Shown here: one piece after another, positions 691 through 44,900 of the stretch
Position numbering within the stretch: the first letter of the stretch is position 1
Layout: each line of letters starts with the position of its first letter
Virus record (IMG/VR): IMGVR_UViG_3300020439_001565
Coordinates: 1-50,519 of that record
DNA from: a virus
DNA length: 50,519 nucleotides
Direction: 5' to 3' (one strand)
Notes under the pieces: generated by a model
Database searches by the model: none
Told to the model about the DNA's origin: nothing
Seen by the model: the letters and a program-made list of their open reading frames with translations, nothing else
Program-made: the position numbers and the translations under genes

Positions 691-2778
691 TTAGAATCCT
701 AGAAGGTCTTTACGATATACCGAATCGTTTGTGTCACCAATCCAGAAAATTGATACTCCCTGGTCTGTTTCTTCCATCAAGACACCACGAGCAAAGCCGT
801 CAATATCAGTTAAATCTTCTCTATTGTTTCCAGTGCCACCAAGTTCCGTAAAAGTAGTTGTGACATCATATGGATTTGCAAGTTGAAAACATATCAATAT
901 ATCTTCGTTTGAACCAATTACAAACAATAAAGTTCCATCAGGAGAGAAACACATTCCAGATGGACTAGCATCGGCAACATTTATATTTTGACTTACCCCA
1001 TCATAAGTGCTATTATATCTATCAATAATAAAAGGAGTAGTTACACTATATTGCAGTATTTTATCGGCATTCTGATCTAAAACGAAAAACTTGTCTCCGT
1101 TAGGACTCCACACAAGATCCCAAGGATTTGTAGCTGAAATATTATCATCTGCCAGATCTCTACATCCATCAATTAAAGTTGTTGCATCATCAGTTACACG
1201 GAAAGGAAATAATGAGAATTTATCATAACTAACATTCCATGGGTCCAACATGAGTATTTTTGTACCAGAATCAACTATCAAACAATCTGATATTGCTACA
1301 TGATAAAAATCGTGACTTTCGTTAGTTACTATACCAGAATTGTTTAAAGCACCATCATCCATACTGAGGGTAGTTCTACCAGTAGTAGTCATCTGAGATA
1401 AATCATATCCCTTAGGTTCTACAAAAATATTACCAACCATACCCGAATGACTACCACATTGATATACATATGCTCCTGCAGTACTAGGAGTCCAACTCAC
1501 TGTAGCATTGGTAGCTCCCTGATTGGTAGGTCCAGAAACATTTGACCCACCTGGATGGGTTCTAATATAAAATGGATGACTACTTGCATTAACGGCAAAG
1601 TTAATAGTATCCCCGACATGTATGTATACGTTTGGATCGGGTCCATCAACGCCACCCTCTCTGTCAATACCAGCAAGACTATAATTAGTCGAACCTGAAG
1701 CGGTAACATTGAAAGAGTAAGTACCCGCAGATGCAGCAGGACAATTCATAATTTCTAGGTTAGCACTATCACCAGCAGCAACTACAAGTTGAGTTCCATC
1801 AGTGTTCCAAGAAAATCCAAAATGTTCCGTCCATCCAGTCAAACTAAGATTGGTAAAGTAAGATGCAGTACTTAGATCCCATGCAGTCGTAAGACGATAC
1901 TCGTTAAGATCATTACCAGCCTCTCCTATCATATAAAAACTGCGACCATCAGGTCTGAATCTAATACCAGTAGGACTAGATTCTTGAGAAGATATACTAA
2001 AATTAGCAGTATTACTTAAAGTTCCACTAGTTACGTCCCAAGCGTTGGAAAGAGATACTTCGTATATTTTATCATACTGACTATCTATAAGATACATTTT
2101 AGTTCCATCAGGTTTAAATTCAATACCTCTAGGAACTGGACTACTTTCATAATTCAATGAACCATAACTATCATAACTACAGGTTGTAAGATCAAATGCA
2201 GTGCTTAGATTCCACTGATATACCCTGTCATTACCATAACCACATGCAAATATTCTTGTTCCATCGGGTTTCATAGTAAACCCTCTAATATAACTCTCAC
2301 TAGCTTGAGTAGAATCAGATATATTGTTGTGTATTGTAGTATTGAATCCTCTAGTAAGAGTACTAGTTACATCAAATGGAGTACTTAAAGTGAACATTGA
2401 TACTCCATCGTGTTCACTTCCAGCTATGTAAATATATCGACCATCTGAAGATATTGTAAATCCCCTAACGTATCTTTCACTCAATTCATCGATAGCTACA
2501 GTACCATCTAATGTTTTTGTTGAAAAATCGTATGGAATGGAAAGAGTATATTGTTTTAAATTACCAGTGGTTTCTACAATGTATGCTTTAGTACCACTTT
2601 GAGCAAATCGAAGTGCATACATATCAGAACCATGATTATACACTGATTCAGACACTGTATAATTTCTAAGTCCACTACCAAAGGACCTCAAGAAATCAAT
2701 AGTATCATCTAACCTAATTAGTCCACCCAGTCTGGCACCGACCGAAGCGCCTGTAACAAGACCTCTTTTTCTTGGCAT
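691..2778 (-). CDS. Beta-propeller-like virion protein with internal cupredoxin-like domain
   Basis: A 695-residue protein, probably structural given its neighbours. Residues about 45-345 and 500-690 are repeats of about 50 residues with the pattern FxPDGTxxY...GxxxxxxxxYxLSxxWDLST, like WD40/YVTN propeller blades. Between them (about 360-455) lies a cupredoxin-like domain: NVYIHVGDTINF, then SSHPF (His401), then YVYQCGSHSGM (Cys441, His444, Met447), a plausible His-Cys-His-Met type I copper site. The start overlaps the upstream stop as TAATG. The C-x2-H-x2-M spacing is shorter than the C-x2-H-x4-M of plastocyanin, so copper binding is inferred. A role in fibre or baseplate decoration is likely but unproven. 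Confidence 0.7.
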   Translation of the reverse strand: MPRKRGLVTGASVGARLGGLIRLDDTIDFLRSFGSGLRNYTVSESVYNHGSDMYALRFAQSGTKAYIVETTGNLKQYTLSIPYDFSTKTLDGTVAIDELSERYVRGFTISSDGRYIYIAGSEHDGVSMFTLSTPFDVTSTLTRGFNTTIHNNISDSTQASESYIRGFTMKPDGTRIFACGYGNDRVYQWNLSTAFDLTTCSYDSYGSLNYESSPVPRGIEFKPDGTKMYLIDSQYDKIYEVSLSNAWDVTSGTLSNTANFSISSQESSPTGIRFRPDGRSFYMIGEAGNDLNEYRLTTAWDLSTASYFTNLSLTGWTEHFGFSWNTDGTQLVVAAGDSANLEIMNCPAASAGTYSFNVTASGSTNYSLAGIDREGGVDGPDPNVYIHVGDTINFAVNASSHPFYIRTHPGGSNVSGPTNQGATNATVSWTPSTAGAYVYQCGSHSGMVGNIFVEPKGYDLSQMTTTGRTTLSMDDGALNNSGIVTNESHDFYHVAISDCLIVDSGTKILMLDPWNVSYDKFSLFPFRVTDDATTLIDGCRDLADDNISATNPWDLVWSPNGDKFFVLDQNADKILQYSVTTPFIIDRYNSTYDGVSQNINVADASPSGMCFSPDGTLLFVIGSNEDILICFQLANPYDVTTTFTELGGTGNNREDLTDIDGFARGVLMEETDQGVSIFWIGDTNDSVYRKDLLGF

Positions 2779-3143
2779 TATGAGATTTCCTCGTAACCTA
2801 CAATAACATCGATGTCATTTGCAGCACTAGCTTCTACTCTCAAACTAGTTCCTTCTTCAAGATAAAAATAAGTTTCTTTTGAAGAAATAATCTGGGTTGC
2901 ATGTGCTGGAACTTGAATATCCTTTGCGATATTAATATCATTAGTACCATCGTAGATGGAAACTGTTACATCTGCAGCTACTGCAGAGTCATCATTAGCA
3001 CAAAGAATTGAATTGATCTTCAGGACTTTGTTGCTTGAAGAACCACAAGTGACAATTCCTTGTTTAGTAGCAGCAGCTCCGATACTATACGCAGCAGTCT
3101 TACCAGTAATAGTTGTTGGATTTTTTAGATTTGGTGCAGCCAT
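2778..3143 (-). CDS. Small fibre-associated structural protein, unknown
   Basis: A 121-residue protein opening MAAPNLKNPTTITGK, rich in Ala, Ser, Thr and Val, with alternating hydrophobic residues that suggest a beta-sandwich and no membrane segment. It has a strong ribosome site (AAGGAGA) before ATG 3143 and a CTAAATA box 19 nt upstream, so it is probably expressed late. Its size, position and composition recall the 113-residue product of 6418-6759; both follow a giant fibre gene and may be fibre accessory or head-decoration proteins. No catalytic motif seen. Confidence 0.6.
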   Translation of the reverse strand: MAAPNLKNPTTITGKTAAYSIGAAATKQGIVTCGSSSNKVLKINSILCANDDSAVAADVTVSIYDGTNDINIAKDIQVPAHATQIISSKETYFYLEEGTSLRVEASAANDIDVIVGYEEIS

Positions 3144-3162
3144 TTTTTAAATCTCCTTGTAG

Positions 3163-3169
3163 TTATTTA
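3163..3169 (-). promoter_or_regulatory. CTAAATA box, probable late-promoter variant
   Basis: Minus-strand CTAAATA (3169-3163) lies 19 nt before the ATG at 3143, just after the stop of the preceding gene. It differs from the T4 late box by one base and recurs upstream of other genes in this window. Confidence 0.4.
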
Positions 3170-6100
3170 GAATATCATTCCTGCTATTACAGGACTTATA
3201 CCTGCAGCAGCACCAGAAGTAACAGTGACAACACCAGCAGAGACTGGAGACACTGAGAGACCAGAACCAAAGTCTATGGTAGTAGAAACACCAACAGCGG
3301 ACTGATCGTCTTGAACAGATATTCCTGCTTCAGATGCTGCAAGAACACCAGATAGTTGAGATCCATCTCCTCTGAAAGAAGTTGCGGTAAGAATACCAGT
3401 TACAACTACACCAGCATTGGTGGTGGCGACCCTCTCAACAACATTATGGTAGAGACTGACTCCATCACCGACACCTCCACCACCAGATCCATATCTAGCA
3501 AATAGGTTACCAGAATTATCTTCAATATCAAAACCATTATTTGTCCTGAAGTGTAACAAACCACCACCAGATTTTTGTATTATAGGGTCACCACTACTTT
3601 CAAAAACTTTAATTTCACCGTTTCCACCATCCAAGAACGTAGAAACACCAGAAATATTTAAAGAATTAATTTCAACATTCCCTTGAAAAGTAGCACTACT
3701 TGAACATAGAAATTGATCAACATTTGCAAGTCCATCAATATAAAGGTTTCTCCATTCATCGTTAGGAGCACCTAAGTCATAAGTATCATCACTTGCAGGA
3801 ATAAGGCTAGAACCAATGTCGCCAGAGAATGTAGAAACACCAGATACGTTTAACTGTTGTGTTTCTGTAGTTCCAAATACTGTGGCACCTACACCAGTGG
3901 TTTCAAGTTTCTTATCGTAATTATATCTAAGTTCAGTTGAAGTATCGGGGTTAACTACAAATGCAACGTCACTATCCTGCATACCACCAGGATTACCAGC
4001 GGAAGAAGAGCTTCCATCATTATTACTAACTCGGAAAGCATTTGCTGCACCAACAGAAACAGAATAATTTCCATTTGTAGTTTGTCTTACATAGTTTTGA
4101 TGAAGATTTGAATTTGCATTCGAGGTAGAATCAACAACATAAAGTCCATAATCAGTTATAGGATTACCAACACTAATTGATGATCTATTAATGTAACCAT
4201 CAGCAGTGGCAAAATGTAGTTTTCCACTGTTAGAAGCTACGTCAGTTCCAATAGCAACCTTATCATTAAATGTAGAAACACCAGTTACGTTTAATGTTTG
4301 TGTTTCAGTATTTCCAAAGACAGTAACACCAATACCAGTTGTTTCAAATTTCTTGACATTTTGATGCCAAAGTTGAGCAGTTCCAAAACCAGTGAAGACT
4401 GCCATTCTTCCCCAACCAGTGCTATAGTCATTAGAACCCGATGTTGCACCAACACTAGCAATAACTACATCACCACTAGTTCCTCCAAGATTATTGGAAC
4501 CTAACATCAAATCCTGAGTACCATTTGATGCTATTTGTATTACTGAAGTACCAACTTCGATACCGCCTTTGTATACATTAGCACGTTTAAATGTAATTCC
4601 CTCGTTAGAAAAACTTCTATTGAGTTGAATATTTCCAGTAAATGTTGAAATACCAGAAACATTAAGGTTAGCAACTTCAATATCTGGTGTACCAGTAAGT
4701 CCTTGAGATACAGTAGAAACACCAGCAGTATTTGCATATGTTGCGGTGATTCCAGTGATCCCACTTCCACTTCCTTGGAAATCACCATAGAAAGTTGTTG
4801 CGGTTACAACTCCAGTGAAGTTACCATCACCTCTATCAAGTCTTACAGTACCAGCAGCACCAGTTCTCAGGATCGTACCACCAGCGGTGGCGGAAGTGAT
4901 ACTAATATCTGGATCTCCTGTCAGATTTTCTGCAACAGTTGCAATGCCAGCAGTTTGTGCATAGGTAGCAATGCCAGCAGTTTGTGCATAGGTAGCAACA
5001 CCAGCATTCCCAACGTAACTTTGAGCAGGTACATTTACAAGACCAGAACCATCTCCGTAGAAGTTAGCAGCAGAAACAAAACCAACAACAGTTAAGTTTC
5101 TACCGACTGACATGTCAGTACTAACTGCAACGTTAATTGCATTTAGATCTAAGTTATTAGGAGAATCAATACTTGGAGTACCTGAAGAAGTACTTTCAAA
5201 TCTAGTAGCAGTTACAACACCCGATACTCTCAAGTCACCAGTGATAGTTACTCCACCACCAACGGTTTCTAATTTCTTTCCGCCATTATAATATAGTTCT
5301 ACAGATGCATCATCAGTAAACTTTGCTGCTGTTATAGAGTCGTTCTGAATGAACATCTCATGTGTTTGGCCAGACTGACCATACTTAATATACAGAGGTT
5401 TAGTTGACGTAAAGAAAGAGTTTCCGAGTGTCCCATGGAAGATTTCCATCTCCTGGGAAGTACCAAGGTAAATCCTATCATTATCATAAAGACTAACACT
5501 ATCTGTGAAAGTTGCAGCAGAACCAGTAATATTTCTAATATTAAGATCCTGAGCATCAAGATCTTGCAGAGTAGTTATACCAGATAGAACATGAATACCG
5601 CGAGTATTAACTACGATTCCATCTCTCGCAGTAACTATACCAATGGAATCTACATTGGTTACGTCTTCATAAGTTAGAGTACCACCAATGGTTACGTTTC
5701 CAGTGAAGTTACCACTAACCGCAGTGATAATTCCAGCATTGACATCTCCAGTTAAATCGCCAGTAACATTGCCTTCTAGAGGTCCAACAAATCCATCAGC
5801 AGTTGCAATACCAGTTACTATAATACCTGACTGAGTAGTTTCAAATTTCTTGGAGTCATCAAAGAAAAGATCTACTGATCCATTTTGATGAGCGTTAATT
5901 ATCTTTTCATCATCGGGAGATCTAAAACGAAGGGTGGTGCCCTTCATAATGAGGGCACCAGTTCCAGCATCTTCTACATAACTGTTGCTACCATCATGAT
6001 AGATTTTCAGATCAGATCCATCACCCATGATGATTTGATCATTATCACCAAAGTAAATATCTTCTTTAAATGTAGCAATACCCGCTACATCAAGATTGGT

Positions 6101-6409
6101 GATCTCAATATTTGGTCTACCAGTCAGAGAATAAGCAGTAGCAGCTGCAGTTGCAGTGGTTGCAGATCCAGCAGTGGTTGCATTCGTCGCAATTCCAGCG
6201 GTGTGTGCGTAACCAGCTACAGTTGCAAAACCAGCAGTGCCTGCATAAGCACCAGCGTCAGCAGTTATATTTGTTAAGTTAGATCCATCACCATGAAACT
6301 CTAGAGCCGTAACGATTCCAGAGAACTCAGCATTACCAGTAACACCTAAAACTGTATGGGTATCAGTATAACTAGAAATACCGATCTTGAGATGTCTCTT
6401 CCTTTCCAT
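3167..6409 (-). CDS. Giant fibre-like virion protein with GDGS-L repeats
   Basis: A 1080-residue protein opening MERKRHLKIGISSYTD. It is built from repeated modules: ATxFxGDGSxLTxI hairpins, TAGIATYA-type 9-residue repeats, NLNVSGISTFxGxI strands and KKLETTGVGVTVxG blocks, as in tail-fibre or long-appendage proteins of marine T4-like phages. It ends in a glycine/valine-rich segment (SAGVVTVTSGAAAGIS) likely to be beta-structured. It lies between two small accessory structural genes. Trimeric fibre folding is inferred from the repeats; receptor specificity cannot be read. Confidence 0.75.
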   Translation of the reverse strand: MERKRHLKIGISSYTDTHTVLGVTGNAEFSGIVTALEFHGDGSNLTNITADAGAYAGTAGFATVAGYAHTAGIATNATTAGSATTATAAATAYSLTGRPNIEITNLDVAGIATFKEDIYFGDNDQIIMGDGSDLKIYHDGSNSYVEDAGTGALIMKGTTLRFRSPDDEKIINAHQNGSVDLFFDDSKKFETTQSGIIVTGIATADGFVGPLEGNVTGDLTGDVNAGIITAVSGNFTGNVTIGGTLTYEDVTNVDSIGIVTARDGIVVNTRGIHVLSGITTLQDLDAQDLNIRNITGSAATFTDSVSLYDNDRIYLGTSQEMEIFHGTLGNSFFTSTKPLYIKYGQSGQTHEMFIQNDSITAAKFTDDASVELYYNGGKKLETVGGGVTITGDLRVSGVVTATRFESTSSGTPSIDSPNNLDLNAINVAVSTDMSVGRNLTVVGFVSAANFYGDGSGLVNVPAQSYVGNAGVATYAQTAGIATYAQTAGIATVAENLTGDPDISITSATAGGTILRTGAAGTVRLDRGDGNFTGVVTATTFYGDFQGSGSGITGITATYANTAGVSTVSQGLTGTPDIEVANLNVSGISTFTGNIQLNRSFSNEGITFKRANVYKGGIEVGTSVIQIASNGTQDLMLGSNNLGGTSGDVVIASVGATSGSNDYSTGWGRMAVFTGFGTAQLWHQNVKKFETTGIGVTVFGNTETQTLNVTGVSTFNDKVAIGTDVASNSGKLHFATADGYINRSSISVGNPITDYGLYVVDSTSNANSNLHQNYVRQTTNGNYSVSVGAANAFRVSNNDGSSSSAGNPGGMQDSDVAFVVNPDTSTELRYNYDKKLETTGVGATVFGTTETQQLNVSGVSTFSGDIGSSLIPASDDTYDLGAPNDEWRNLYIDGLANVDQFLCSSSATFQGNVEINSLNISGVSTFLDGGNGEIKVFESSGDPIIQKSGGGLLHFRTNNGFDIEDNSGNLFARYGSGGGGVGDGVSLYHNVVERVATTNAGVVVTGILTATSFRGDGSQLSGVLAASEAGISVQDDQSAVGVSTTIDFGSGLSVSPVSAGVVTVTSGAAAGISPVIAGMIF
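4941..4994 (-). repeat. Perfect tandem 27-nt repeat inside fibre gene
   Basis: Two identical adjacent 27-nt copies (4941-4967, 4968-4994) encode two 9-residue YAQTAGIAT units. Exact identity inside an otherwise diverged repeat field indicates a recent duplication and possible length variation of the fibre. Confidence 0.85.
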
Positions 6410-6417
6410 TTAGCCCC

Positions 6418-6759
6418 TCAGATTAATGTTTCAAGGACAGTTACTAAAACATGTAGTCCAGTTGATGTGCTTGTACCGACTTTAAACTGATCTCCAGGAA
6501 CAAGAGTTAATTTTCCTGTAGTCAGTTCAATTGTTTCATGAGATGCACATGCTTTTTGATATGAAGCATATGTTGTTACTGCGACTCCTGATACTTCTCT
6601 GACGTGTTGTAGAGTAACGTCTTCTGATGCACCCGTTGTGTTTGTCGCTTGGGCGCATAGTACAACTGCGTTATAACCAGATGGTGCGGTATATATTCCT
6701 ACTGGAGAGCTTCCTGCGTTGACACCAACTGTCACATAATTATTAAGTGCTAATGCCAT
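6418..6759 (-). CDS. Small fibre-associated structural protein, unknown
   Basis: A 113-residue protein opening MALALNNYVTVGVNAG, with predicted beta strands (YTAPSGYNAVVLCAQA, LTLVPGDQFKVGTS) and no signal peptide or membrane helix. The last part, GLHVLVTVLETLI, is hydrophobic and resembles the end of a beta-sandwich. It lies between two giant fibre genes, 8 nt upstream of the 3167-6409 gene, which suggests co-expression. The fold may match the 121-residue neighbour at 2778-3143. Function not recognised. Confidence 0.6.
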   Translation of the reverse strand: MALALNNYVTVGVNAGSSPVGIYTAPSGYNAVVLCAQATNTTGASEDVTLQHVREVSGVAVTTYASYQKACASHETIELTTGKLTLVPGDQFKVGTSTSTGLHVLVTVLETLI

Positions 6760-6762
6760 TTT

Positions 6763-9700
6763 TTAGAAACCCCCGAGAGATAAAATATATGGTGTCATAG
6801 TTGAAACTAAACTCTTGCTGTACGATTGTCCTGAAATTCTTCCTTCGACTTGGTTGATAATAACACCGTCACCGATCTTAAAGTTACCCGCTTGGTTAGT
6901 ACTGGTGTAGATTACCAGTCCACCGTTTCTAGAATCTGTTTCATTTTCAGGGATTGGTGGAATGCCACCACTATATGGAATTGCTCTAGAAATATCATTT
7001 CCAGATCCAACAAATTCAAATGAGTGGGAAGTTGCAAGTATTCTACTTTGTTTAAAGAAGTTTACTACCGTACCAACTCCAACGGCGAAAGGCACATTTT
7101 CAGTCAAGGTTACCAAAGAAACATCATTAGTAATTGCCGTTGCTTTTGAAATTGTATAGTAAGTCGGAGTAAGTTCAGCCTTACCTACTGCAGTATTTAT
7201 GCCTGACTGGGGAGTAGAGAAGGTGACAGTAGGAGGATTTACATATCCTCTACCATTTGAAATCATATCAACACCAACGATCTTTCCGTTTTCTAGAACA
7301 GGAATACCAGTTGCTTTGACACCCCAATCAGTCTCTGGATCAGAGAACACAACGGATGGTTGTGCGGTATAAGTTCCTTGATCACTGATGTTGACTTTCT
7401 TGACAGTATTATAGAGTCTATCAAAGTAAATAACCTGACCATCATGTGGTCTAGGAACGTCAAGTGCAGCATCTCCACCACTTACATAGGTGTGTGCAAT
7501 AGTGGAAACACCAACGTTAACAGTGAATACTGTACTAGCCATGGATACTGCAGGTAACTCGTTTGCACCCACGATATTTCCAGCACCCAGTCTAGTGGTA
7601 AGAATACCAACCAGATTATCAATAAAGGAACGAGGTCCAGAACAAGATGCAGGATCAGTATTGGAACCAGTACCAGGATCAGGAAGAATAGTTAGATCCT
7701 TGAATGGAAGTTGATTAGTAATTGCTTCCTTCATCATGACTCTTGCAGAACTAAATCCTACAAGAGTTTGTGGAACTTCACCAGCAACACCATTAGAGAT
7801 TAGTGCAGATCCATCAAGAGTAAAGTATCTCTTTGTTGCTTCAAGAGTATTCTTTGAAGTCTTGTCGCGGATATCCTTAGTGACTGCATCGATAACGTGA
7901 CCGATATCTCTCTTACATTTCTCAGGATCTGGTTGGACAAATGAAGGATATGCAACACCAATCGCAGCATAGGATTGATCAATGATATGTTGTCTATTAC
8001 CAGCAATCAGAGTATGTCCATCATAATAGGTTCCCTCTGCGACTGCTTCTGCATTGAAAACATATCCCAAATTACCAGAAGGATAAATTGAGTTACCCTC
8101 ATTGCAACTAAAAGTCATATTATTAATAGTTACACCAGCACCAATCAAGAACTTATGTGCTCCATCAGTTTCAACTCTCAACATACCAGTAGTATGTGTA
8201 TAACCTGCATTGACTACATTTAATGTTGGATTGTTTAGATTGATGGCAAATACGTCAGTATTTTCTGCAGCTGCAGTAGTAACAACACCAGTATAACTTA
8301 GATCACTAACACCATCTGCAACCAATCCAAAATCACCAAATGATGAGTTGGAGTTTGAAAGATCACATGCACCACCAGTCCCTGTAAAGATTGCAGTTTC
8401 ACAACAAATTGTGAACATAGAAACCAACTGGGCATATGCATTATTGGTAATAGAACAACCAATACCACCCTGATTATACTGAGTGTAGGAGTCAACAACC
8501 ATGGACTTCGTTGGTCCAATAGAGAGATCACCATCAATCTTCATCCCGATATTATTAGGAATGAAGTTAGTGCAGTTCTGAACATATGTAGATCTACTAA
8601 TATATCTTCTCTCTACAGGATCAAATGCAACAACTGCTTTACCTGGATTTTGAGTTCCAGTAAAAGACATCTCAGCGATGTAGTTTGCATTACCAACATG
8701 GAAGATATCTTGATCTGCATTTAGGGGACTGATCGTAGTCTCTCTAATAGATGCACCGATTACACTAACCTCATTAGGAAGAACAATAGGATTGTCTTCA
8801 ATGTAAGAACCTGGTGCAACTCTTACAACAGTATCAGATAGACCTTCGTCAATAATTTTTTGAACTGCAGCCTTAATGGTTAGTTTTGGTTTAGTCAGTT
8901 CACCAGAGTTGGAATCATTACCATCCTTGGCAACATAAAGAATACTCTTCTCACCTTGAATGTCTGCATCGTTTGCAAAGGTTGCAATACCAGCAGTAGA
9001 AGCATAGGTTGCGATGCCAGCAGTAGCAGCATAGGTCGCGGTCCCAGCAACACCAGATATACTCTGAGCCGTGGTTGCTACAGAAGCAATACCAGCAGTA
9101 GCAGCATAGGTCGCGACAGATGCATTAGTTGCAATACCAGCAGTGGTAGCATAGGTCGCGGCAGATGCATTAGTTGCAATACCAGCAGTGGTAGCAAACG
9201 TTGAAATGCCGGCAACGAAAGCATAATTTACTGTGTCAGCTGAAGGTGCGGTAACCGTAGAGAATACAAACTTCTTAGTCGCATGATCGTATCTCAGATA
9301 CATGCCATCATATGCACTTGCATTAGTAGCAATACCCACAATATCATCAAGATATTGCAAACGGGTTTCACCGCCACCACCAAGTGTTGATAGTTGCTCT
9401 TGAACTCTATTGACAAACAAACTATAGTGTTTGTTCAACTGGTCAATGGTTACAAACTCAGTTTTAGAAAGAGGATCATTCGGATCCAGAGGTCCGTTCA
9501 AAAGACCTTCATTAAGAAGTTTTCCTTTCTTGGTTTCTTCTTTTAGTGCCTGATAGGACTCACTAATTTCATTTAGTTTCTTACCAAGAGCAGAGATATC
9601 AAAATCTTTCTTAGATAAAATTCCAAATACTTCTTCTCTCAGTTCTTTAATGGCAATGCCATGTTCTCTACTATATTTCTTATCAATACTTTCTTTTACC

Positions 9701-10128
9701 TGATGAACTCTAGAGTCCAAAAGGTTTCTAACTTCTTTAACTGTGGAAGAAGTGGTATCTTTAAAGTTTTCAGTTAATACTTCAACTTGTTCAAAGATCT
9801 TCTTCTCAGCTTGTTTAATCTTTGATTCGACTCTGAGATCTGTTTGATGGACAGTCTTCTTATACTTAGGAAGTTTATCATTTACAAGATCATCTACTAG
9901 ATCATATAAACCAACAATGTCTTCCCGATACTCCTGCAGTTGTTTTTTATTTGCAGAGAGAATTTGTTCCTGAATATTTTTAAAAGCACTATCAATAATC
10001 AACAATGAAGGTGCTACTCCCTCATGTGGTGATTCGATGGTCTGTTCTTCCATCGGAATATCAACTACCTCAGGAGCTTTAATCTCCTTGTTTTCACCAT
10101 TTAGTTCGGACGGTTTTTTTAGTGCCAC
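6763..10128 (-). CDS. Coiled-coil and beta-helix fibre/structural protein, GTG start
   Basis: About 1121 residues. Residues about 35-225 are charged coiled coil (KQAEKKIFEQVEVL, KELREEVFGIL). Then come TAGIATNAS repeats (about 285-385) and a parallel beta-helix-type region starting AKDGNDSNSGELTKPKLTIK, like pectate-lyase/pre-neck-appendage folds, followed by a large C-terminal region ending PYILSLGGF. I chose GTG 10128 (VALKKPSEL) because GGAG lies 9 nt before it; an upstream ATG at 10155 lacks such a site and adds an unlike sequence. It is first in the fibre operon, with a composite promoter 35 nt upstream. Likely a tail-fibre or tailspike-type protein; no enzyme residues are evident. Confidence 0.72.
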   Translation of the reverse strand: MALKKPSELNGENKEIKAPEVVDIPMEEQTIESPHEGVAPSLLIIDSAFKNIQEQILSANKKQLQEYREDIVGLYDLVDDLVNDKLPKYKKTVHQTDLRVESKIKQAEKKIFEQVEVLTENFKDTTSSTVKEVRNLLDSRVHQVKESIDKKYSREHGIAIKELREEVFGILSKKDFDISALGKKLNEISESYQALKEETKKGKLLNEGLLNGPLDPNDPLSKTEFVTIDQLNKHYSLFVNRVQEQLSTLGGGGETRLQYLDDIVGIATNASAYDGMYLRYDHATKKFVFSTVTAPSADTVNYAFVAGISTFATTAGIATNASAATYATTAGIATNASVATYAATAGIASVATTAQSISGVAGTATYAATAGIATYASTAGIATFANDADIQGEKSILYVAKDGNDSNSGELTKPKLTIKAAVQKIIDEGLSDTVVRVAPGSYIEDNPIVLPNEVSVIGASIRETTISPLNADQDIFHVGNANYIAEMSFTGTQNPGKAVVAFDPVERRYISRSTYVQNCTNFIPNNIGMKIDGDLSIGPTKSMVVDSYTQYNQGGIGCSITNNAYAQLVSMFTICCETAIFTGTGGACDLSNSNSSFGDFGLVADGVSDLSYTGVVTTAAAENTDVFAINLNNPTLNVVNAGYTHTTGMLRVETDGAHKFLIGAGVTINNMTFSCNEGNSIYPSGNLGYVFNAEAVAEGTYYDGHTLIAGNRQHIIDQSYAAIGVAYPSFVQPDPEKCKRDIGHVIDAVTKDIRDKTSKNTLEATKRYFTLDGSALISNGVAGEVPQTLVGFSSARVMMKEAITNQLPFKDLTILPDPGTGSNTDPASCSGPRSFIDNLVGILTTRLGAGNIVGANELPAVSMASTVFTVNVGVSTIAHTYVSGGDAALDVPRPHDGQVIYFDRLYNTVKKVNISDQGTYTAQPSVVFSDPETDWGVKATGIPVLENGKIVGVDMISNGRGYVNPPTVTFSTPQSGINTAVGKAELTPTYYTISKATAITNDVSLVTLTENVPFAVGVGTVVNFFKQSRILATSHSFEFVGSGNDISRAIPYSGGIPPIPENETDSRNGGLVIYTSTNQAGNFKIGDGVIINQVEGRISGQSYSKSLVSTMTPYILSLGGF
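9119..9196 (-). repeat. 45-nt period repeat with two identical 33-nt copies
   Basis: 33-nt identical segments at 9119-9151 and 9164-9196 encode the TAGIATNAS units of the fibre protein. A similar but diverged unit lies just downstream of the coiled coil. The array probably sets fibre length. Confidence 0.8.
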
Positions 10129-10162
10129 TAATAATATCTCCGTACATGAGGTCAATATTTAA

Positions 10163-10196
10163 TATTTATATTACCGTCATAATAGATCATTGTCAA
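10163..10196 (-). promoter_or_regulatory. Composite promoter: sigma70 boxes plus late box
   Basis: Minus strand TTGACA (10196-10191), 17-bp spacer, TAATAT (10173-10168), overlapped by TATAAATA (10170-10163). The stop codon TGA of the preceding gene (10195-10193) forms part of the -35 hexamer. It drives the fibre gene starting at 10128. Confidence 0.75.
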
Positions 10197-10831
10197 CAAA
10201 AGTGAACTAACTTATCAAGCAATTTCTTATAATTACCATCTGACTTAATTATCAAACGTTTCATTTCACACCATAAATCAGACTCGTCGTAGATCTTACC
10301 AGACCAAGGACCCAGAGGATGAGGTTCCTGGTCAAACTCTATCCCCATGACGTAAGTTCTTCTAGGCCACATAGTTCCCATACATGATAATACAGAAACT
10401 TGATCGACTTCCTTTCCTTTTCGTACTAGGTCAATTAGATTTGATAATTTGCCACCAGACTTTGGTTGAAATATGACTCTATCTATAGGAGTCTGCGGTA
10501 AGAAATGAGATAGGATCAATGTTCTACACTTTCCAGTTTCTCTCATGGGAGAGGTAGGATCAGAAGTTTTATACATTGGATACATACATCCTCCTTCGGA
10601 AAGTTCTTTATACAAAATAGGGAGAACAGTGAAGTGTGACTGGGGATATTCTATAGAATTATTATCATATTTGCCTTGCATTACATCTTCTACATCAGAA
10701 ACAAAAGTATCAAAAGATGATTGTTCATCAATAGAATCTACCAGAGTATTCTCCATATATTCAAACTGGGCAATATCATCAAACGGTTTTAATGTTTCAA
10801 ACGTTACCGCATCATTATATAAAATATTCAT
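10193..10831 (-). CDS. Paralogue array member 7 (last, most diverged), unknown
   Basis: A 212-residue protein, the last of seven tandem related genes. It keeps the family layout: an N-terminal beta segment with FEYME, the middle block SHFTVLPILYKELSEGG, then CRTLILSHFLP in place of the GRxLIxxRYFP seen in the others, and a C-terminal YKKLLDKLVHF. The YGxG loop present in the siblings is replaced by SGGKLS, so it may have lost an activity or interaction. A ribosome site (GGAG) precedes ATG 10831, and the gene overlaps the next one upstream by 17 nt. No known domain recognised. Confidence 0.75.
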   Translation of the reverse strand: MNILYNDAVTFETLKPFDDIAQFEYMENTLVDSIDEQSSFDTFVSDVEDVMQGKYDNNSIEYPQSHFTVLPILYKELSEGGCMYPMYKTSDPTSPMRETGKCRTLILSHFLPQTPIDRVIFQPKSGGKLSNLIDLVRKGKEVDQVSVLSCMGTMWPRRTYVMGIEFDQEPHPLGPWSGKIYDESDLWCEMKRLIIKSDGNYKKLLDKLVHFC

Positions 10832-11531
10832 CTTTCTCCGACTTTGGTCTGTCTAAACTATTGATCATACCCTTTACTATTTTATCAAAACAATCTTCTG
10901 GATCATCTAATATAATCTTTCTCTGTTTTTCCCACAAATAATCAGACACAGTATCTTCAATATATTGATTGGGTTTCCACCACTTACGTTCATCTATATA
11001 GTCGTGCCCAAAACAAATCTCTTTAATGTAATAGTATGCACCACATGGTTCTAAAAACACTATGACATCTTCAATAAAATCCTTGTCTTTCCAATAGTCA
11101 CTATTCCGTATCAAATCAATTACTTTTTCAACAACTTCTGTAGTACCAATACCGTACTCTTCCGAAGATCTAATAATATCAACTTTACAATCAGGAAAGT
11201 ATCTACCTATTACTAGTGCTCTACCAAATCCAGTAGAATACTTATCGAAAGGATCATCACAGTCCATAAATGTAAAGATAGGAAATCTAACCATACCTTC
11301 AGATAAAATGTCTCTATAAAGATAAGGCAACTTGGTGAAGTTTCTGGGTTTATCTTTACCACTCCTAACTCTTTCCAAATGATAATTAAAATCATCAATA
11401 GCATATTGATGGAAATCTATTGGAATATCAACCTGACAATCATACTTAAAATTACAGATCATCAAAGGTCTTATCTTGGTTGATTTTATTTCTCTACCAC
11501 TAGTGTCTTCAAAGTATCTTATCCTCTGCAT
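10815..11531 (-). CDS. Paralogue array member 6, unknown
   Basis: A 238-residue protein opening MQRIRYFEDTSGREIKSTKI. It has the full family signature: YFxDxTG at the N-terminus, NFKYDCQVDI, FTKLPYLYRDILSEG, FGRALVIGRYFP, SSEEYGIGTTEVVEKVIDLI, YWKDKDFIEDVIVFL and a C-terminal DCFDKIVKGMINSLD. It is closest to member 3 (13092-13814), sharing KSTRIKPLMIANFEYE-like text, so these two probably arose by a later duplication. No signal peptide or membrane segment; likely cytoplasmic. Function not recognised. Confidence 0.8.
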   Translation of the reverse strand: MQRIRYFEDTSGREIKSTKIRPLMICNFKYDCQVDIPIDFHQYAIDDFNYHLERVRSGKDKPRNFTKLPYLYRDILSEGMVRFPIFTFMDCDDPFDKYSTGFGRALVIGRYFPDCKVDIIRSSEEYGIGTTEVVEKVIDLIRNSDYWKDKDFIEDVIVFLEPCGAYYYIKEICFGHDYIDERKWWKPNQYIEDTVSDYLWEKQRKIILDDPEDCFDKIVKGMINSLDRPKSEKDEYFI

Positions 11532-12244
11532 AATATAATATCGTCCAAGAGTTGCAAATAATCTTCATCTGTTTCTAACTTAGAAAGTTTTATCTTTGAT
11601 TTTATTTCCAACCAGTCATCGAAAGTACAGACTTTTTCCAGAAAAGGATCTAGTTGTCTAGTTGTTGGTCTCTTTAGTCTTTCAGACAAATATTCTTTAC
11701 TCACAAAATTAACACTCCTAATTTGCCACATGTCCTGAAAGGGAAGTAATGACACAACATATTCTTTATCAAAATCATTCCCACTTCCAGCAAGACTCAA
11801 ATATTTTCTTACTAACTCTTCACCACCAACACCATACTCTTTACCATGCGTAGTATAATCATGAACAAGATATGGAAAATACCTATACCCAATCAACGTT
11901 CTACCATGCCCACATGAAAGAAGTCTTTCCTTATTGGGATCAATAACAAATGGTTGTTTGAACTTACCCTCCTCCACAAGGACATCATATAAATGAATCA
12001 ATTTTGTTATCAACCAATATCCCTCTCTGAATTCTATAAAAGCATCATCATATGGTTTATTCCATGCAGGATTGAAAGGAGCAGACTTGAAGTGTTTGAT
12101 ATCTCTCTTAAAGATAGAAAGAGATTCTTGAAAGAGTCTTTCGGATATCGTATCGTGTTCATACTTATATCCAACTACCTTTAACTGATCACCAAGGTTT
12201 AACGACTCTCCAGTTTTATCATTAAAGTATAATATAGGTTTCAT
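11519..12244 (-). CDS. Paralogue array member 5, unknown
   Basis: About 241 residues. I chose the ATG at 12244, which overlaps the upstream stop as ATGA (an ATG nine bases earlier is possible). Family blocks are seen: MKPILYFNDKTGESLN, VGYKYEHDTI, HGRTLIGYRYFP, HGKEYGVGGEELVRKYLSL, YVVSLLPFQDMWQIRSVNF and YLSERLKRPTTRQLDPFLEK. The strongly conserved FP...YGxGxxE core suggests one fold with variable surfaces. No catalytic motif of a known family recognised. Confidence 0.78.
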   Translation of the reverse strand: MKPILYFNDKTGESLNLGDQLKVVGYKYEHDTISERLFQESLSIFKRDIKHFKSAPFNPAWNKPYDDAFIEFREGYWLITKLIHLYDVLVEEGKFKQPFVIDPNKERLLSCGHGRTLIGYRYFPYLVHDYTTHGKEYGVGGEELVRKYLSLAGSGNDFDKEYVVSLLPFQDMWQIRSVNFVSKEYLSERLKRPTTRQLDPFLEKVCTFDDWLEIKSKIKLSKLETDEDYLQLLDDIILCRG

Positions 12245-13095
12245 ATCTTCCAAGTATAGACACTCTCAAAATGTTTTTTGTATCCTCTAACCATATTATC
12301 TAATAATTCCCAATAGTCTTCATCAGTTTCCAATGTAGATCCATCAATAATATTTTTAAGAATCTTCCAGTTAGTTAGTCTAGAAGTATTTTCTATAAAC
12401 CTTTCAGGTCTGTAGTGCTTATAGTTTTCCATGTATTCAGGATCAACTAACTCTACTGTCTTTAGAGTGTACAACATTCTATAAGTATAGTCGTCATAAA
12501 AGTCATCCAATCCACCAAAGAATCTATTTTCGCCCACAGAACATAAGTTAACTATGATTTTATAATCAGATATATCTTTACCATTCCAATATGAATTTTC
12601 AAATAAGTTATCCAAAAATTCTTCCATATCGTCATCACCACCAATACCTTCCGATATATCGCTACTAACAATATCAATGGTTTGTTCTGGAAAATATCTA
12701 CCTAAGATTAAACTCCTACCATTTCCAGATAACATTGGCGTATGTTTGAGTCCATAGTCATTAGAAGTCAACCACTTCTCCTGATACGGAGATTCCATAA
12801 TGGGATACTGAAATGGTTCTCCTCCTTCAGCAGTTAGGTATAGGAAAGGAAGTATAGTGAAAACATCGAAAGCTATTCTACCATCGTCATAATCACGCAT
12901 ACCATATCCACGACCACCGTTTAAGTATCTATCAACATCATATTTGAAAAGATCAAACGCAGTTGCAAGTCTATCTGGTGAAATTTTTTCATTCTTATAG
13001 TACTTAAACTTTACAAGATTTAAGTTAAAGAGACCATCATCAAATTCAATCAACTGACCATCGTCAGCATCAAAGTAAGTTACATTGTATTTCAT
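12241..13095 (-). CDS. Paralogue array member 4, unknown
   Basis: A 284-residue protein, longer than most siblings because of insertions near GYGMRDYDDGRIA and the region after the core. The family core is intact: VTYFDADDGQLIEF, FTILPFLYLTAEGG, GNGRSLILGRYFP, SSDISEGIGGDDDMEEFL (an acidic version of the YGxGxxE loop), YWNGKDISDYKIIVNL and ERFIENTSRLTNWKILKNI. Overlaps its upstream neighbour by 4 nt (ATGA), so translation is probably coupled. Unknown function. Confidence 0.8.
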   Translation of the reverse strand: MKYNVTYFDADDGQLIEFDDGLFNLNLVKFKYYKNEKISPDRLATAFDLFKYDVDRYLNGGRGYGMRDYDDGRIAFDVFTILPFLYLTAEGGEPFQYPIMESPYQEKWLTSNDYGLKHTPMLSGNGRSLILGRYFPEQTIDIVSSDISEGIGGDDDMEEFLDNLFENSYWNGKDISDYKIIVNLCSVGENRFFGGLDDFYDDYTYRMLYTLKTVELVDPEYMENYKHYRPERFIENTSRLTNWKILKNIIDGSTLETDEDYWELLDNMVRGYKKHFESVYTWKI

Positions 13096-13814
13096 TTTGT
13101 ATAATACTTGATATTATTGGATTGAAGTCCATCAAGGTTATTTAACATGCCTCTCACAACCATATCAAAACAATTTGTGGGGTCTTCTTTTATTGCCTGT
13201 TCCTGCAATTCCCACAACCCATCATTGATTGTTGATTCTACAAATTCTTGAGGTCTATAATTCTTTCTTCTCTCTAGATAGTCATCCGAAGCGAAACCTA
13301 TTTCTTTAAGATAATAATACCAAGTATGTTTACCCAACATGACAATAACTGTTTCGGAAACTGATTTATCTTTCCAATACATATTATTCCTAATCAAATC
13401 TATTGCTTTTTCTGCAATTTCAATTGATCCTACACCAAAATCTTGAGATGACTTTATATGATCTACCCTAATGTCTGGAAAGTACTTTCGTGCAACTAGT
13501 GCTCTACCATATCCCACACCATATCGCACATTTATATCTGGATGATCACAAAATTCATAGAATGGAAACCTCATCATCCCATCTTTTTGAAACTCTTTAT
13601 AGAGATACGGCAACTTTGTAAAGATCCTAGGCTTAGGATTACCATTAAGTACTCTATTTACATGATACTTAATGTCATCTATGGCACAACTATGAAACTC
13701 TTCAGATATTTTAACTTGAGATTCATACTCAAAATTTGCAATCATTAGAGGTTTGATCCTGGTAGATTTTAATTCTTTTCCACTACCATCATCAAAGTAC
13801 TTTATCTTTAACAT
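13092..13814 (-). CDS. Paralogue array member 3, unknown
   Basis: A 240-residue protein opening MLKIKYFDDGSGKELKSTRI, the clearest copy of the family N-terminus. It has FTKLPYLYKEFQKDG, YGRALVARKYFP, SSQDFGVGSIEIAEKAIDLI, YWKDKSVSETVIVML, YYLKEIGFASDDYLERRKNY and a C-terminal FDMVVRGMLNNLD. It is the nearest relative of member 6. Overlaps member 2 by 23 nt, a longer overlap than ATGA that still preserves both frames. No domain recognised. Confidence 0.8.
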   Translation of the reverse strand: MLKIKYFDDGSGKELKSTRIKPLMIANFEYESQVKISEEFHSCAIDDIKYHVNRVLNGNPKPRIFTKLPYLYKEFQKDGMMRFPFYEFCDHPDINVRYGVGYGRALVARKYFPDIRVDHIKSSQDFGVGSIEIAEKAIDLIRNNMYWKDKSVSETVIVMLGKHTWYYYLKEIGFASDDYLERRKNYRPQEFVESTINDGLWELQEQAIKEDPTNCFDMVVRGMLNNLDGLQSNNIKYYTK

Positions 13815-14535
13815 AATCTAAGTTCTTAAAAACAATGTCATTGAGAATCTCAGTGTAATATTTACCAGATTTCAAAATCAACTTTATCCTACTCCATAAT
13901 TTCATATCCATAGATCTTTCGATGAATGGTTCTGGTCTAAAATTTCTATAGGAGTTCAAGTAGTTTTCATCGGTAAAACTCAAATCCTTAATTACATACA
14001 AATCTTTTTTATACTTTGAAAGTAAGACAACAGCAATAGGATATTTTACATGACCCATCCAATATCTATTATTAGAAATATCATTAATTAGTTTTCTGAT
14101 TATTTCTTCTCCACCAGTACCAAACTGTTCTGAGTGTGTAGTAATATCCAAAGGAACATCATGGGCAAAAGTAGAAGCTATAAGAGTTCTACCCAATCCA
14201 GAAATCATTTTCCTACTTTTTTTCCTATCTGGAAAAACATAAGCAGGATATTTAAAAGGTAGTTTCTTTACACACAAATCATAATAAAGATATGGCAGTT
14301 TTGTGAATACGTCGTGAGGAAAAATATATTTTTCACTGAATATATACTCTTCTTCTGATAAAGTAGTATCTTCTTCTAAAAACTCATCCACATCCGCAGT
14401 AAAGACGTTGAAGGCATCTTGAGCCATTTGGTCTGTTGGTAATATGACTTCATACTTATAGTCCACGATGGTAGGAATATCCATAGGCATTCCAGTTGCA
14501 TCATCAAAACATAATATTTTAAAGTCTCCAGTCAT
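13792..14535 (-). CDS. Paralogue array member 2, unknown
   Basis: A 247-residue protein opening MTGDFKILCFDDATGMPMDI. Family blocks: VDYKYEVILPTD, FTKLPYLYYDLCVKK, GLGRTLIASTFAHD (core changed from RYFP), HSEQFGTGGEEIIRKLINDI, YWMGHVKYPIAVVLL and FRPEPFIERSMDMKLWSRI. The altered FP motif separates it from members 3-6. No transmembrane segment. It is co-transcribed with its siblings; the function is unknown. Confidence 0.8.
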   Translation of the reverse strand: MTGDFKILCFDDATGMPMDIPTIVDYKYEVILPTDQMAQDAFNVFTADVDEFLEEDTTLSEEEYIFSEKYIFPHDVFTKLPYLYYDLCVKKLPFKYPAYVFPDRKKSRKMISGLGRTLIASTFAHDVPLDITTHSEQFGTGGEEIIRKLINDISNNRYWMGHVKYPIAVVLLSKYKKDLYVIKDLSFTDENYLNSYRNFRPEPFIERSMDMKLWSRIKLILKSGKYYTEILNDIVFKNLDYVKDKVL

Positions 14536-15373
14536 AAATTGATTCTACGTAGTCTAAGTTATCGAAAATGAATTTGTCTAAAAGATCTATGTCTTCCCCT
14601 TCAAATTCTTCGTATATTTTATGTAATCTTTTATTTAGATTGTTTTGAATGGTCTTACTTAAGAAGTAGTCTGGTTTTAATCTGGGTTCTATATGTTTCC
14701 CCGCATCTTTCTGAGGCACAAAGTCTATCAGTTTAATAAACCAAACATTTTTTTCATTCCATCTATACTCCTGTTCATCAAAAGGAACCTCAATACCATC
14801 TGTATGTGTCCACTTAGGATCTGGGTATGGATGTAAGTTAACAAATGCTACCATGTCGGACACATCTTTGTCTTTCCACCATGAAGTTTGTTTAACGTAT
14901 TCAACATATTCTTCGATAACTTCACCTCTACCTGTTCCATATTGTAAGGAAAAATGGGCAAGTGGATAATTACTTTCTGGGAAATATCGATTCTGAATAA
15001 AAAGTCTACCAGATCCTGTTTGAAGATCCCATCTCTCTGGATTAGTTTTACTATATCCTTTCCTATCAATGATATTTAAATCTATTGCAATGTATGGGTA
15101 CATGAAACATCCATGTTTCTTATAATCCAAATACTGATATGGAAGTTTGGCTATAGATCTAAGTTTCTCGTCACCTTCTTTGGTTCCTGGATTAAAAAAT
15201 ATATTGGGATCATCATTATGAATTGATCTTATATTTTTCAAGTTAGATTTATAACTATCTCTAACCATTTTTTCTGACATGACATCCAAAGTCACAGGAT
15301 TAAATCCCATGACCCTATTAGGTGGATGCTCAAAATTTATACCAGTCTCATCAACGATATATTTTATTTGCAT
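14519..15373 (-). CDS. Paralogue array member 1, unknown
   Basis: A 284-residue protein and the first of the seven. It has MQIKYIVDETGINFEHPP, IAKLPYQYLDYKKHG, SGRLFIQNRYFP, FSLQYGTGRGEVIEEYVEYV, WWKDKDVSDMVAFVNL and a C-terminal DLLDKFIFDNLDYVES. It overlaps the GT8-like gene upstream by 23 nt, tying the array physically and probably translationally to a sugar-transfer gene and glgP. The family might act on or sense carbohydrate, but that is inference only. Confidence 0.8.
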   Translation of the reverse strand: MQIKYIVDETGINFEHPPNRVMGFNPVTLDVMSEKMVRDSYKSNLKNIRSIHNDDPNIFFNPGTKEGDEKLRSIAKLPYQYLDYKKHGCFMYPYIAIDLNIIDRKGYSKTNPERWDLQTGSGRLFIQNRYFPESNYPLAHFSLQYGTGRGEVIEEYVEYVKQTSWWKDKDVSDMVAFVNLHPYPDPKWTHTDGIEVPFDEQEYRWNEKNVWFIKLIDFVPQKDAGKHIEPRLKPDYFLSKTIQNNLNKRLHKIYEEFEGEDIDLLDKFIFDNLDYVESIYDWRL

Positions 15374-41982: not shown

Positions 41983-44900
41983 ATGTCTAAACGTGTTATT
42001 AACATAGGAAACGCTCCCAATGATGGAACTGGAGATCCGTTGAGAACGGGTCTATCCAAAGTTAATGAAAACTTTACTGAGCTTTATAATACTCTCGGTG
42101 ATGGGAACAACGTTATAAGTTATGCAAGCACTGCAGGCATTTCAACTCTTGCTGGAAACCTGACAGGTACACCTTCTATTGAGGTTTCTGGACTTACAAA
42201 CACTGGAGTTAGTACGGTTCAATCAATTCAAGCAACCGACCTAACTGTTGCTGGTATTGTAACTGCAACTCAGTTCTCTGGTGATGGATCTCAACTTACT
42301 GGTGTAACTGGAACTGGTCAAGGTATTGACATTTATGAAGATGCAACAAGAAGAGGTATTGCAAAACAGTTAAACTTTGCAGAAAACATTCAAGTATCTG
42401 CTCCAGATGGTCAAGGAAGAGTTAATATCTCTGTTGCTTCCAGTATCATTGGAGCAGGTGGAACTGGTGGCGGAGGTATAGCTGGCATAGAAGTTCGCGA
42501 TGATAATGTAACCCTAGGTGATGTAACAAAAGTAGACTTCGGTGACAACTTAGATCTAACACCTGTCAGTGAAGGTATATCTACGGTATCAGTATCTTTC
42601 CCAACATATCCATACAGTGGAATTACCACCGCAGATATCACAAACTGGGATACAGCATATGGTTGGGGAGACCATGGTGCAGTAGGATATCTTACATCAT
42701 ATACCGAGAGACAAACACTAGATGATGTTGTTGGTCTGGGGAATTCAACCAGTAGAGATGTAAGTATCGGAGGATCGATATTTGCAGAAAGGATCTATTA
42801 TCGTAATGTATGGTCAAGTATTAGTGACATATATCAAAACGCACCTGCAATCTTATATCATGGAATGTTTGCACATGTTCATGAAACTGGGCATGGTTAT
42901 TTTGCACACCAGGGTGACTGGATTCAGTTATTAGATACCAGTAGTAAACTTACAGATCTTAGTGACACACTAAATGATGTTCCCGACTCTGGATGGGACG
43001 GTAATATTCTTAGATATAATTTTGCAACTGGTAGGTGGGAAAGAGAAGAACCCATTTCACTAGGAATTGGAACTGCTGATATTAATAATTGGAACGCAGC
43101 ATATAATTGGGGTAACCACGCAACCGTTGGTTATATTACATCATATACCGAGACACAAACACTAGACGATGTTCTAGGACTTGGTAATAGTACAACCAAG
43201 GGAATCAATCTCGGTGTCCTCACCGCAACATCATTCATTGGTGATGGTTCTGGAATTACTGGAATTACGACTCTAAACATCAGTAATATCGGCAACTATG
43301 CTACAATAAGTTACGTCGATACTCAGATTGGCATTAAGACTTTCTCTGGAGTATATAATGATCTATCTGGAAAACCAACCATCCCCTCAGGACTTAATGA
43401 TCTAAGTGATGTAAATGCACCAACTCCTTCCACTGGACAAGTCCTGAAGTGGTCTGGAGAAGAATGGCAGGCAGCTGCAGATATTGGTGGGTCTGGTGGT
43501 TCGGGTATTGGATATTCCGATCTATCAGTTACTCAGAACTCAGTAGGTGTTGCATCACTTTCTTACAATCAAGTAACAGGTGTATTCCTCTACACTCCAC
43601 CAGATCTCACAGGATACGCCACAACAACCTCCATCGTAGGTTTAGCATCTGAAGGTTATGTTGACAATGCTGTTGTCGGTATGGCGACTACAGGGTATGT
43701 AAACAATGCAATCATCGGATTTGTAACCGATGGTTATGTCAATAGTAGAGGATTTACAACTGCTGCATATGTTACTAATTACGTTGATACTCAGATTGGT
43801 ATCAAGACTTTCTCTGGTAGTTACGTTGATCTTAGAGATAAACCCACTATTCCTTCAGACACAAGTGATCTAACAAACAATGCGGGTTTTGTAACATCTG
43901 GAATTGTTGCAGGACTTGCATCAGAAGGTTATGTCAACAATGCAACAGCTGGATTTGTAACTACAGGAGGAGCTAGATTCACTGGAATTGTCACTATGGC
44001 TGGTGGCATAGATCTACTAACCAATGAAATTACCACACCTAGAGTAGATGCTGGTGACCTTATCATGGGAGGTACTCAGTCAAATAGAATTACTACTCAG
44101 TCTGGTAATCTTCGTTTAGATGCATTTACTAATGAAGTAGAAATTACGGCTGACTTGAGTCAGACTGGTAATCAAAACATCGCTGGTATTATTACTGCAA
44201 GTCTATTTTCTGGCGATGGTTCTGGACTCACGGGAGTTGCAGCAACTGACGTAGCTCTCAGTATTCAAGATGAAGGTTCATTAGTAGGATCTGCAAAAAC
44301 TCTAAACTTTGCAGGTGCTGGAATTACTGCATCAATATCGGCAAACGTTGCAACTATAACTGTTTCCGATCAGACATATACAGGAACTGCGTCAACGATT
44401 ACTACAAGTGATATCTCAAATTGGAATACTTCTTATGGTTGGGGTAATCATGCAATAGTAGGTTATCTGACTACAGGGGGAGGTACATTTACTGGAATTA
44501 TCACCGCCCAGGGAGGTATAGATCTTGGTGAACTTGATAAAATCAGATTTAATGATGCTAACCTCGCAATCTATGGTAGTACTGACTTAAATATTGATGC
44601 TTCTGGTGGTAAAGATATCGTCCTCAAGTCTAATGCTTCTGGTGGTAGTGCTGGAAATATTCAATTAAGAACTGTAGTAGGAGGTAGAATCGATCTTACT
44701 GGTGCTGGTGGTGTAGAAATCTATCACACCGACTCATCAGTAAAACTTCAAACTATCAGCGCAGGTGCTACTGTCACTGGAAATCTTTATGCAACAAGAT
44801 TTTATGGCGATGGATCTCAATTAACTAATGTCTCTAACTATACGAACTCAGATGTAGATACTCATCTCAATACTGGAACTGCTTCTAATAACGAATTCCT

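Follow-up and report, generated by a model that had tools for sequence, protein, structure and literature searches.

A cupredoxin domain with a predicted type-1 copper site was identified inside a 695-aa propeller-repeat protein of a marine cyanophage, and both the fold and the copper-competent site are very likely genuine. The protein is encoded in a 50.5-kb record (IMG/VR IMGVR_UViG_3300020439_001565), the whole of which (50,519 nucleotides) was analyzed and is referred to here as the window. About 330 records of cyanophages and marine viruses contain the same domain, in most cases as the C-terminal end of gp9, the baseplate/tail-fibre connector, and its location on the virion is likely. The best overall explanation, a true cupredoxin display module that carries a type-1 site on the virion exterior and takes part in host contact, is modestly favored.

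Sequence and predicted structure of the domain

The domain comprises residues 347-456 of the protein encoded at 691-2778 (-), corresponding to positions 1411-1740 (-) of the window. An initial annotation had placed a cupredoxin-like domain at 1420-1690, which is the right region but slightly short, since the strands of the AlphaFold2 model span residues ~353-454. The four ligands it named were found at exactly the stated residues: His401, the first predicted copper ligand (codon at 1576-1578, -), Cys441 (1456-1458, -), His444 (1447-1449, -) and Met447, the predicted axial ligand (1438-1440, -). Its motif strings NVYIHVGDTINF, SSHPF and YQCGSHSGM were likewise all present in the open reading frame. 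Among distinct near-full domains the four residues are conserved in 95.7%, 97.2%, 95.7% and 96.0% of sequences, respectively.

Searches of solved structures placed the domain among the blue copper proteins. With the single domain sequence, phmmer returned pseudoazurin (E 4e-4), with weaker matches to plastocyanin and amicyanin. A profile of eleven phage relatives matched 50 distinct PDB chains, nearly all of them type-1 copper proteins, with amicyanin and plastocyanin at the top (E about 2e-6); rusticyanin and CuNiR were also matched by profiles of relatives, for which the lowest E over all matches was about 1e-6. In a 72-row profile the Cys-His-Met loop (CxxHxxM) was aligned with the loops of plastocyanin and NirK. 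The CxxHxxM spacing is that of the amicyanin loop, whereas the plastocyanin loop has the form CxxHxxxxM.

Structure prediction, which the initial annotation had named as a check, yielded a cupredoxin sandwich with the ligands on the canonical loops, so that one of the two refuting conditions set there, a fold lacking the sandwich, did not apply. The AlphaFold2 model of the domain (alignment of 72 window and viral-contig rows) had nine strands, a pLDDT of 96.1 and a pTM of 0.88. In this model H401 (domain His55) is situated between strands 45-51 and 57-60, while C441, H444 and M447 (domain C95, H98 and M101) are found at the end of strand 89-95, before strand 102-108. The ligand layout of the predicted model is that of a canonical cupredoxin. 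Foldseek comparison with solved structures returned cupredoxins throughout the top rows, and VIA-align gave a Z of 11.4 (rmsd 2.0 Å, 94 residues) against residues 24-133 of CuNiR 2dv6 and a Z of 10.0 against rusticyanin. The cupredoxin-like assignment is therefore borne out by PDB sequence matches, model and fold matches alike, and a chance motif is ruled out by the profile matches, the fold and the conservation.

The best structural match, the N-terminal cupredoxin of the three-domain CuNiR from Hyphomicrobium denitrificans (2dv6/6tfo), is likewise fused to a larger protein (24% identity over aligned residues), although the remainder is an enzyme there and a tail-region protein here. Amicyanin, plastocyanin and pseudoazurin share the fold and ligand types of the phage domain; however, each of them is a small free-standing carrier of the periplasm or lumen, in contrast to a tail-type module with no evident export signal. 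The open reading frame at 691-2778 had no match to Pfam Copper-bind (PF00127). Three relatives exceeded the cut-off of 21.2 (L171, 34.2; L247, 24.8; L208, 22.4). Membership of PF00127 is not claimed for the two copies found in the window, both of which fell short.

The combination of one Cys, two His and one Met is characteristic of type-1 copper sites, and the four residues are read from sequence and model as a complete set of type-1 (blue) copper ligands, forming a putative copper site. It is highly improbable that the site holds a metal other than copper (Zn, Ni), or that its cysteine acts instead as a reactive or cross-linking residue. Cupredoxin sites accept other metals in vitro and the Zn-bound cupredoxin-like 4hcg was among the fold matches, but the ligand set is the one expected of type-1 copper and a role for a lone cysteine would not preserve both histidines and the methionine.

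Conservation of the ligand set

Conservation was assessed in about 240 viral-contig loci plus references, from which 440 domains were recovered by a profile whose ligand columns had been masked. The four columns were aligned in 316 distinct domains: 263 had H, C, H and M, ten had an axial Gln, and 13 had none of the four. When ligands were re-dealt among sequences in 5000 shuffles, a test inflated by the relatedness of the sequences, about 208 complete sets were expected (maximum 219) against the 263 observed, and 1.0 domains with at most one ligand (maximum 5) against 21 observed. The excess of both complete and near-empty sets over the shuffles indicates that the four residues tend to be retained or lost as a unit. 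The ligand columns were four of the five most conserved among 102, the remaining one being a structural Gly, and no second cysteine was present in 229 of 266 distinct HCHM domains. The bait peptides contained ligand motifs; among non-bait domains the full pattern was found in 73 of 151, the others being fragments, divergent sequences or ligand-free members of giant tail-type proteins. Taken from these alignments, the ligand set is probably under selection in most copies.

The ligand-free members in giant tail-type proteins suggest that the fold can serve the virion without metal. They are compatible with an apo domain acting as an immunoglobulin-like decoration or spacer of the virion, its ligands vestigial, as is the immunoglobulin-domain label of one viral relative. 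Such a role for the family is nonetheless quite improbable: the ligands are present in 263 of the 316 distinct domains, rank among the top conserved columns and are lost as a set, and the ligand cysteine is often the sole cysteine of its protein.

Two further groups of sequences were observed. Giant phage proteins of ~2750 aa (L224:2-8296, L228, L229, L239, L240 and L242, with YHYH matches in L224) contain one intact cupredoxin together with further copies in which some or all ligands are lost. A subgroup with the motif H...CHxHTGQG and an axial Gln occurs in eight loci (L015, L018, L019, L032, L038, L042, L044 and L065). An axial Gln is reminiscent of stellacyanin-type sites.

Genomic context of the propeller protein

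The first gene of the window is a partial psbA with about 90% identity to Synechococcus phage psbA, and the propeller gene is its neighbor. A block of tail fibre and structural genes (PHROG matches) lies on the same strand at 2778-10155, and the propeller gene is the last of this block. Its ATG shares bases with the stop codon of the preceding gene (TAATG) and a GAGG site lies upstream of that ATG, so the gene reads as a member of the tail gene block. The description of this part of the genome as a virion region is thus supported by gene context and by the tail PHROG matches of neighboring open reading frames. The term propeller protein is also supported, as matches to Pfam Lactonase (PF10282, 48.4 bits, cut-off 21.7) and SGL (PF08450, 43.7 bits, cut-off 26.3) both exceeded their cut-offs. 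As read from sequence, the match is indicative of propeller repeats and not of lactonase activity.

A model of the full-length 695-aa protein had a mean pLDDT of 53, with the propeller part poorly modelled and the cupredoxin segment at block means of 94-98; its alignment rows were cupredoxin-only, and propeller rows, once added, were threaded by MAFFT through the cupredoxin segment. No close relative of the whole propeller-cupredoxin protein was found among the viral contigs. Propeller relatives were abundant there, none of their propeller open reading frames contained a cupredoxin, and the four domain copies present belonged to other open reading frames. No example of the propeller-cupredoxin fusion was found outside this window. 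In S-SKS1 (NC_020851.1; L252:4001-4873), propeller-repeat coding sequence related to that of the window was noted upstream of a baseplate wedge gene, in a region free of gene annotation.

The position of the gene beside psbA raises the question of whether the domain is a phage plastocyanin serving photosynthetic electron transport in infected cells. Cyanophages do carry petE (PMC3037559, PMC2984593), and a weak match to phrog_515 PetE was obtained (E 0.15). PetE, however, is a free protein of ~100 aa, whereas the window copy lies inside a 695-aa fusion at the end of a tail block and its relatives are in tail fibres, gp9 and proteases. No signal peptide was evident by eye at the N-terminus of the propeller protein (MPRKRGLVTGAS...). 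An electron carrier of this kind is extremely unlikely, and a plastocyanin-type auxiliary metabolic gene was rejected on architecture, loop spacing and the absence of an evident export signal.

Other features of the window were noted from sequence reading. Seven consecutive open reading frames of about 210-285 aa at 10193-15373 (-) appear by eye to be paralogues of one another. Cargo unusual for a phage occupies 16031-18472 (-), 19434-29715 (-), 30746-33327 (-) and 40333-41799 (-), and includes glycogen-phosphorylase-like, glycosyltransferase and nucleotide-sugar-type, two radical-SAM-type and carbamoyltransferase-like genes.

A second copy in the window and its link to subtilases

The window encodes a second cupredoxin domain (HPF...CTLHSGM) at 45634-45936 (+), not mentioned in the initial annotation, which scored 17.9 bits against Copper-bind. 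This copy forms the C-terminus of a 1318-aa tail fibre protein at 41983-45939 (+), identified by matches to phrog_9729 and, in its C-terminal part, phrog_677. Its ligand cysteine, C1305, is the sole cysteine of the protein. The gp9/10 N-terminal domain (PF07880) was absent from both cupredoxin-bearing window proteins in a Pfam scan. In a tree of 113 domains, which is based on few columns and has many unresolved forks, the two window copies were split apart with support of 100/99, arguing against a recent duplication; Bacteroidetes and phage sequences were intermingled in the large clade to which the propeller copy belongs.

Directly 3' of the tail fibre stop is a subtilase gene at 45941-47884 (+) (Pfam Peptidase_S8, phrog_9158). 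The phrog_9158 subtilases of S-H9-1, S-CAM4 and ACG-2014e bear the closest kind of domain at their C-terminus, whereas in the window the clade-A domain is on the propeller protein and the subtilase lacks the C-terminal cupredoxin usual in this family. Of 160 clade-A loci, 92 encode the domain as a fusion with a subtilase. Clade-B copies, of the tail fibre or gp9 type, are not fused to the protease; of their 79 loci, 38 have a subtilase gene no more than 600 bases away and 61 have one on the same fragment. That the domain and the subtilase are joined in some genomes and neighbors in others points to a common task, and shared tail-gene clusters may be a partial cause of the linkage. No subtilase was found in the 82 propeller-repeat loci, and the propeller gene of the window is not beside the subtilase gene. 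Loci with a subtilase fused to or beside cupredoxin-bearing tail proteins include, besides the window, L007, L091-L096 and L171-L182.

Distribution among phages and marine Bacteroidetes

Searches by tblastn with the propeller copy retrieved 71 phage records, all named as cyanophage or marine virus with the exception of one 'Actinomycetia' record. The tail fibre copy retrieved 321 records and a podovirus copy 332, all of which were named Synechococcus, Prochlorococcus, cyanophage or marine virus. The annotation over most of the matches listed was 'baseplate wedge tail fiber connector', or gp9, and other database labels of relatives were hypothetical and immunoglobulin-domain. Gp9 open reading frames ending in a cupredoxin with four ligands were identified in S-RIM2, Syn33, S-RIM8, P-SSM3, S-RIM14, S-MbCM6, ACG-2014d, ACG-2014b, Syn30, S-SM1 and P-SSM4 (L387-L394, L397-L399). 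The four ligands were kept in all 13 gp9-type or podovirus copies that were read (11 and 2, respectively), and the ligand cysteine was the only cysteine in ten of the 11 gp9 open reading frames.

The cyanophage gp9 proteins (PF07880 N-terminus, phrog_677) share the cupredoxin with the window proteins, here as their C-terminal end, and differ from the propeller protein in carrying the gp9 N-terminal domain. In both gp9 proteins scanned (S-RIM2 and Syn33), T4_gp9_10_N (PF07880) was above its cut-off at the end opposite to the cupredoxin, and a PDB sequence search with S-RIM2 gp9 matched T4-type gp9/gp10 at the N-terminus only. In T7-like P-GSP1 (L395:2944-4944) and P-SCSP2 (L396:2959-4272) the domain is near the N-terminus of a hypothetical protein, indicating that it crosses phage morphotypes. 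The PDB sequence search with the P-SCSP2 tail protein returned no match.

Among cellular genomes, most occurrences of the domain were in marine Bacteroidetes, where it typically makes up the final ~100 residues of DUF285 or InlB-repeat proteins; all ligands were present in 51 of 56 distinct copies. Sequences from marine Flavobacteriaceae and relatives (L333-L382) had up to 72% identity to a phage copy.

Proposed role at the virion surface

The protease link, together with the C-terminal position of the domain on surface and tail proteins in both phages and Bacteroidetes, favors contact with surfaces or substrates. The propeller copy would then be one member, on the outside of the virion, of a family of display domains used across marine cyanophage tails. 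The protein would fold metal-free in the host cytoplasm; phage proteins are made there, so metal uptake probably takes place after lysis or at the host envelope, where copper could be acquired through H401, C441, H444 and M447. The filled site would fix the loop-rich end of the sandwich, this end would touch the host surface during adsorption, and an adjoining or fused subtilase could trim a surface protein. We infer that the metal is copper, that the protein is part of the particle and touches the surface, and that the events follow this order. A role in host contact in which copper is used mainly for structure or affinity is put forward tentatively, as less likely than not. The structural part of the initial annotation is supported; the functions it suggested for a copper site on a structural protein, namely metal binding, adhesion or redox handling at the host surface, are hypotheses.

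The main rival to the display module is a redox or copper-sensing trigger, in which the type-1 site moves electrons or senses copper or redox state at the cyanobacterial surface, for example in baseplate rearrangement or in the handling of reactive oxygen. Retention of all four type-1 ligands including the axial Met goes beyond the needs of a structural metal site, and the ten domains with Gln in place of Met, as in stellacyanin-type sites, point the same way. Yet no redox partner was seen, the fused or adjacent partner being a protease, and some family members have lost all ligands, making a trigger of this kind unlikely. A still broader proposal is that particles of marine T4-like cyanophages are copper proteins on a large scale, with a type-1 ion in each gp9 copy at the baseplate periphery as well as in fibres and proteases, and with copper used to start cyanobacterial infection through redox sensing, host-surface chemistry or a metal-gated step; this is distinctly unlikely. 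The display module is the reading preferred here.

Relation to earlier work and significance

Cupredoxins, cyanophage petE and iron in phage tails are already known. For HxH iron-binding tail fibres (T4 gp37; Alteromonas phage R22Y), the metal has been proposed or shown (PMC11705849). The phage cupredoxin differs from these in the metal expected and in fold, and is predicted to be a dedicated metal-binding domain. Virion proteomics of S-SM1 is reported to have identified 41 proteins (PMC3037559). In the P-SCSP1u cryo-EM paper, fibre N-termini only were resolved and a metal ion is not mentioned. A search of the open-access literature, with subscription journals and preprints outside its scope, found no earlier account of phage tail or baseplate proteins that contain a cupredoxin or type-1 copper domain.

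The findings carry a caution for marine viromes, in that 'plastocyanin-like' matches can be tail domains and not auxiliary metabolic genes. Furthermore, an overlooked C-terminal domain of gp9, a protein annotated only as 'tail fibre connector', would become directly testable. Should the domain indeed bind copper, blue-copper sites would be present in very common marine phages at the point where the baseplate and tail fibres contact the host, and copper would join the iron already proposed for phage tails. Infection would then be tied to the copper chemistry of seawater and to copper-sensitive Prochlorococcus and Synechococcus.
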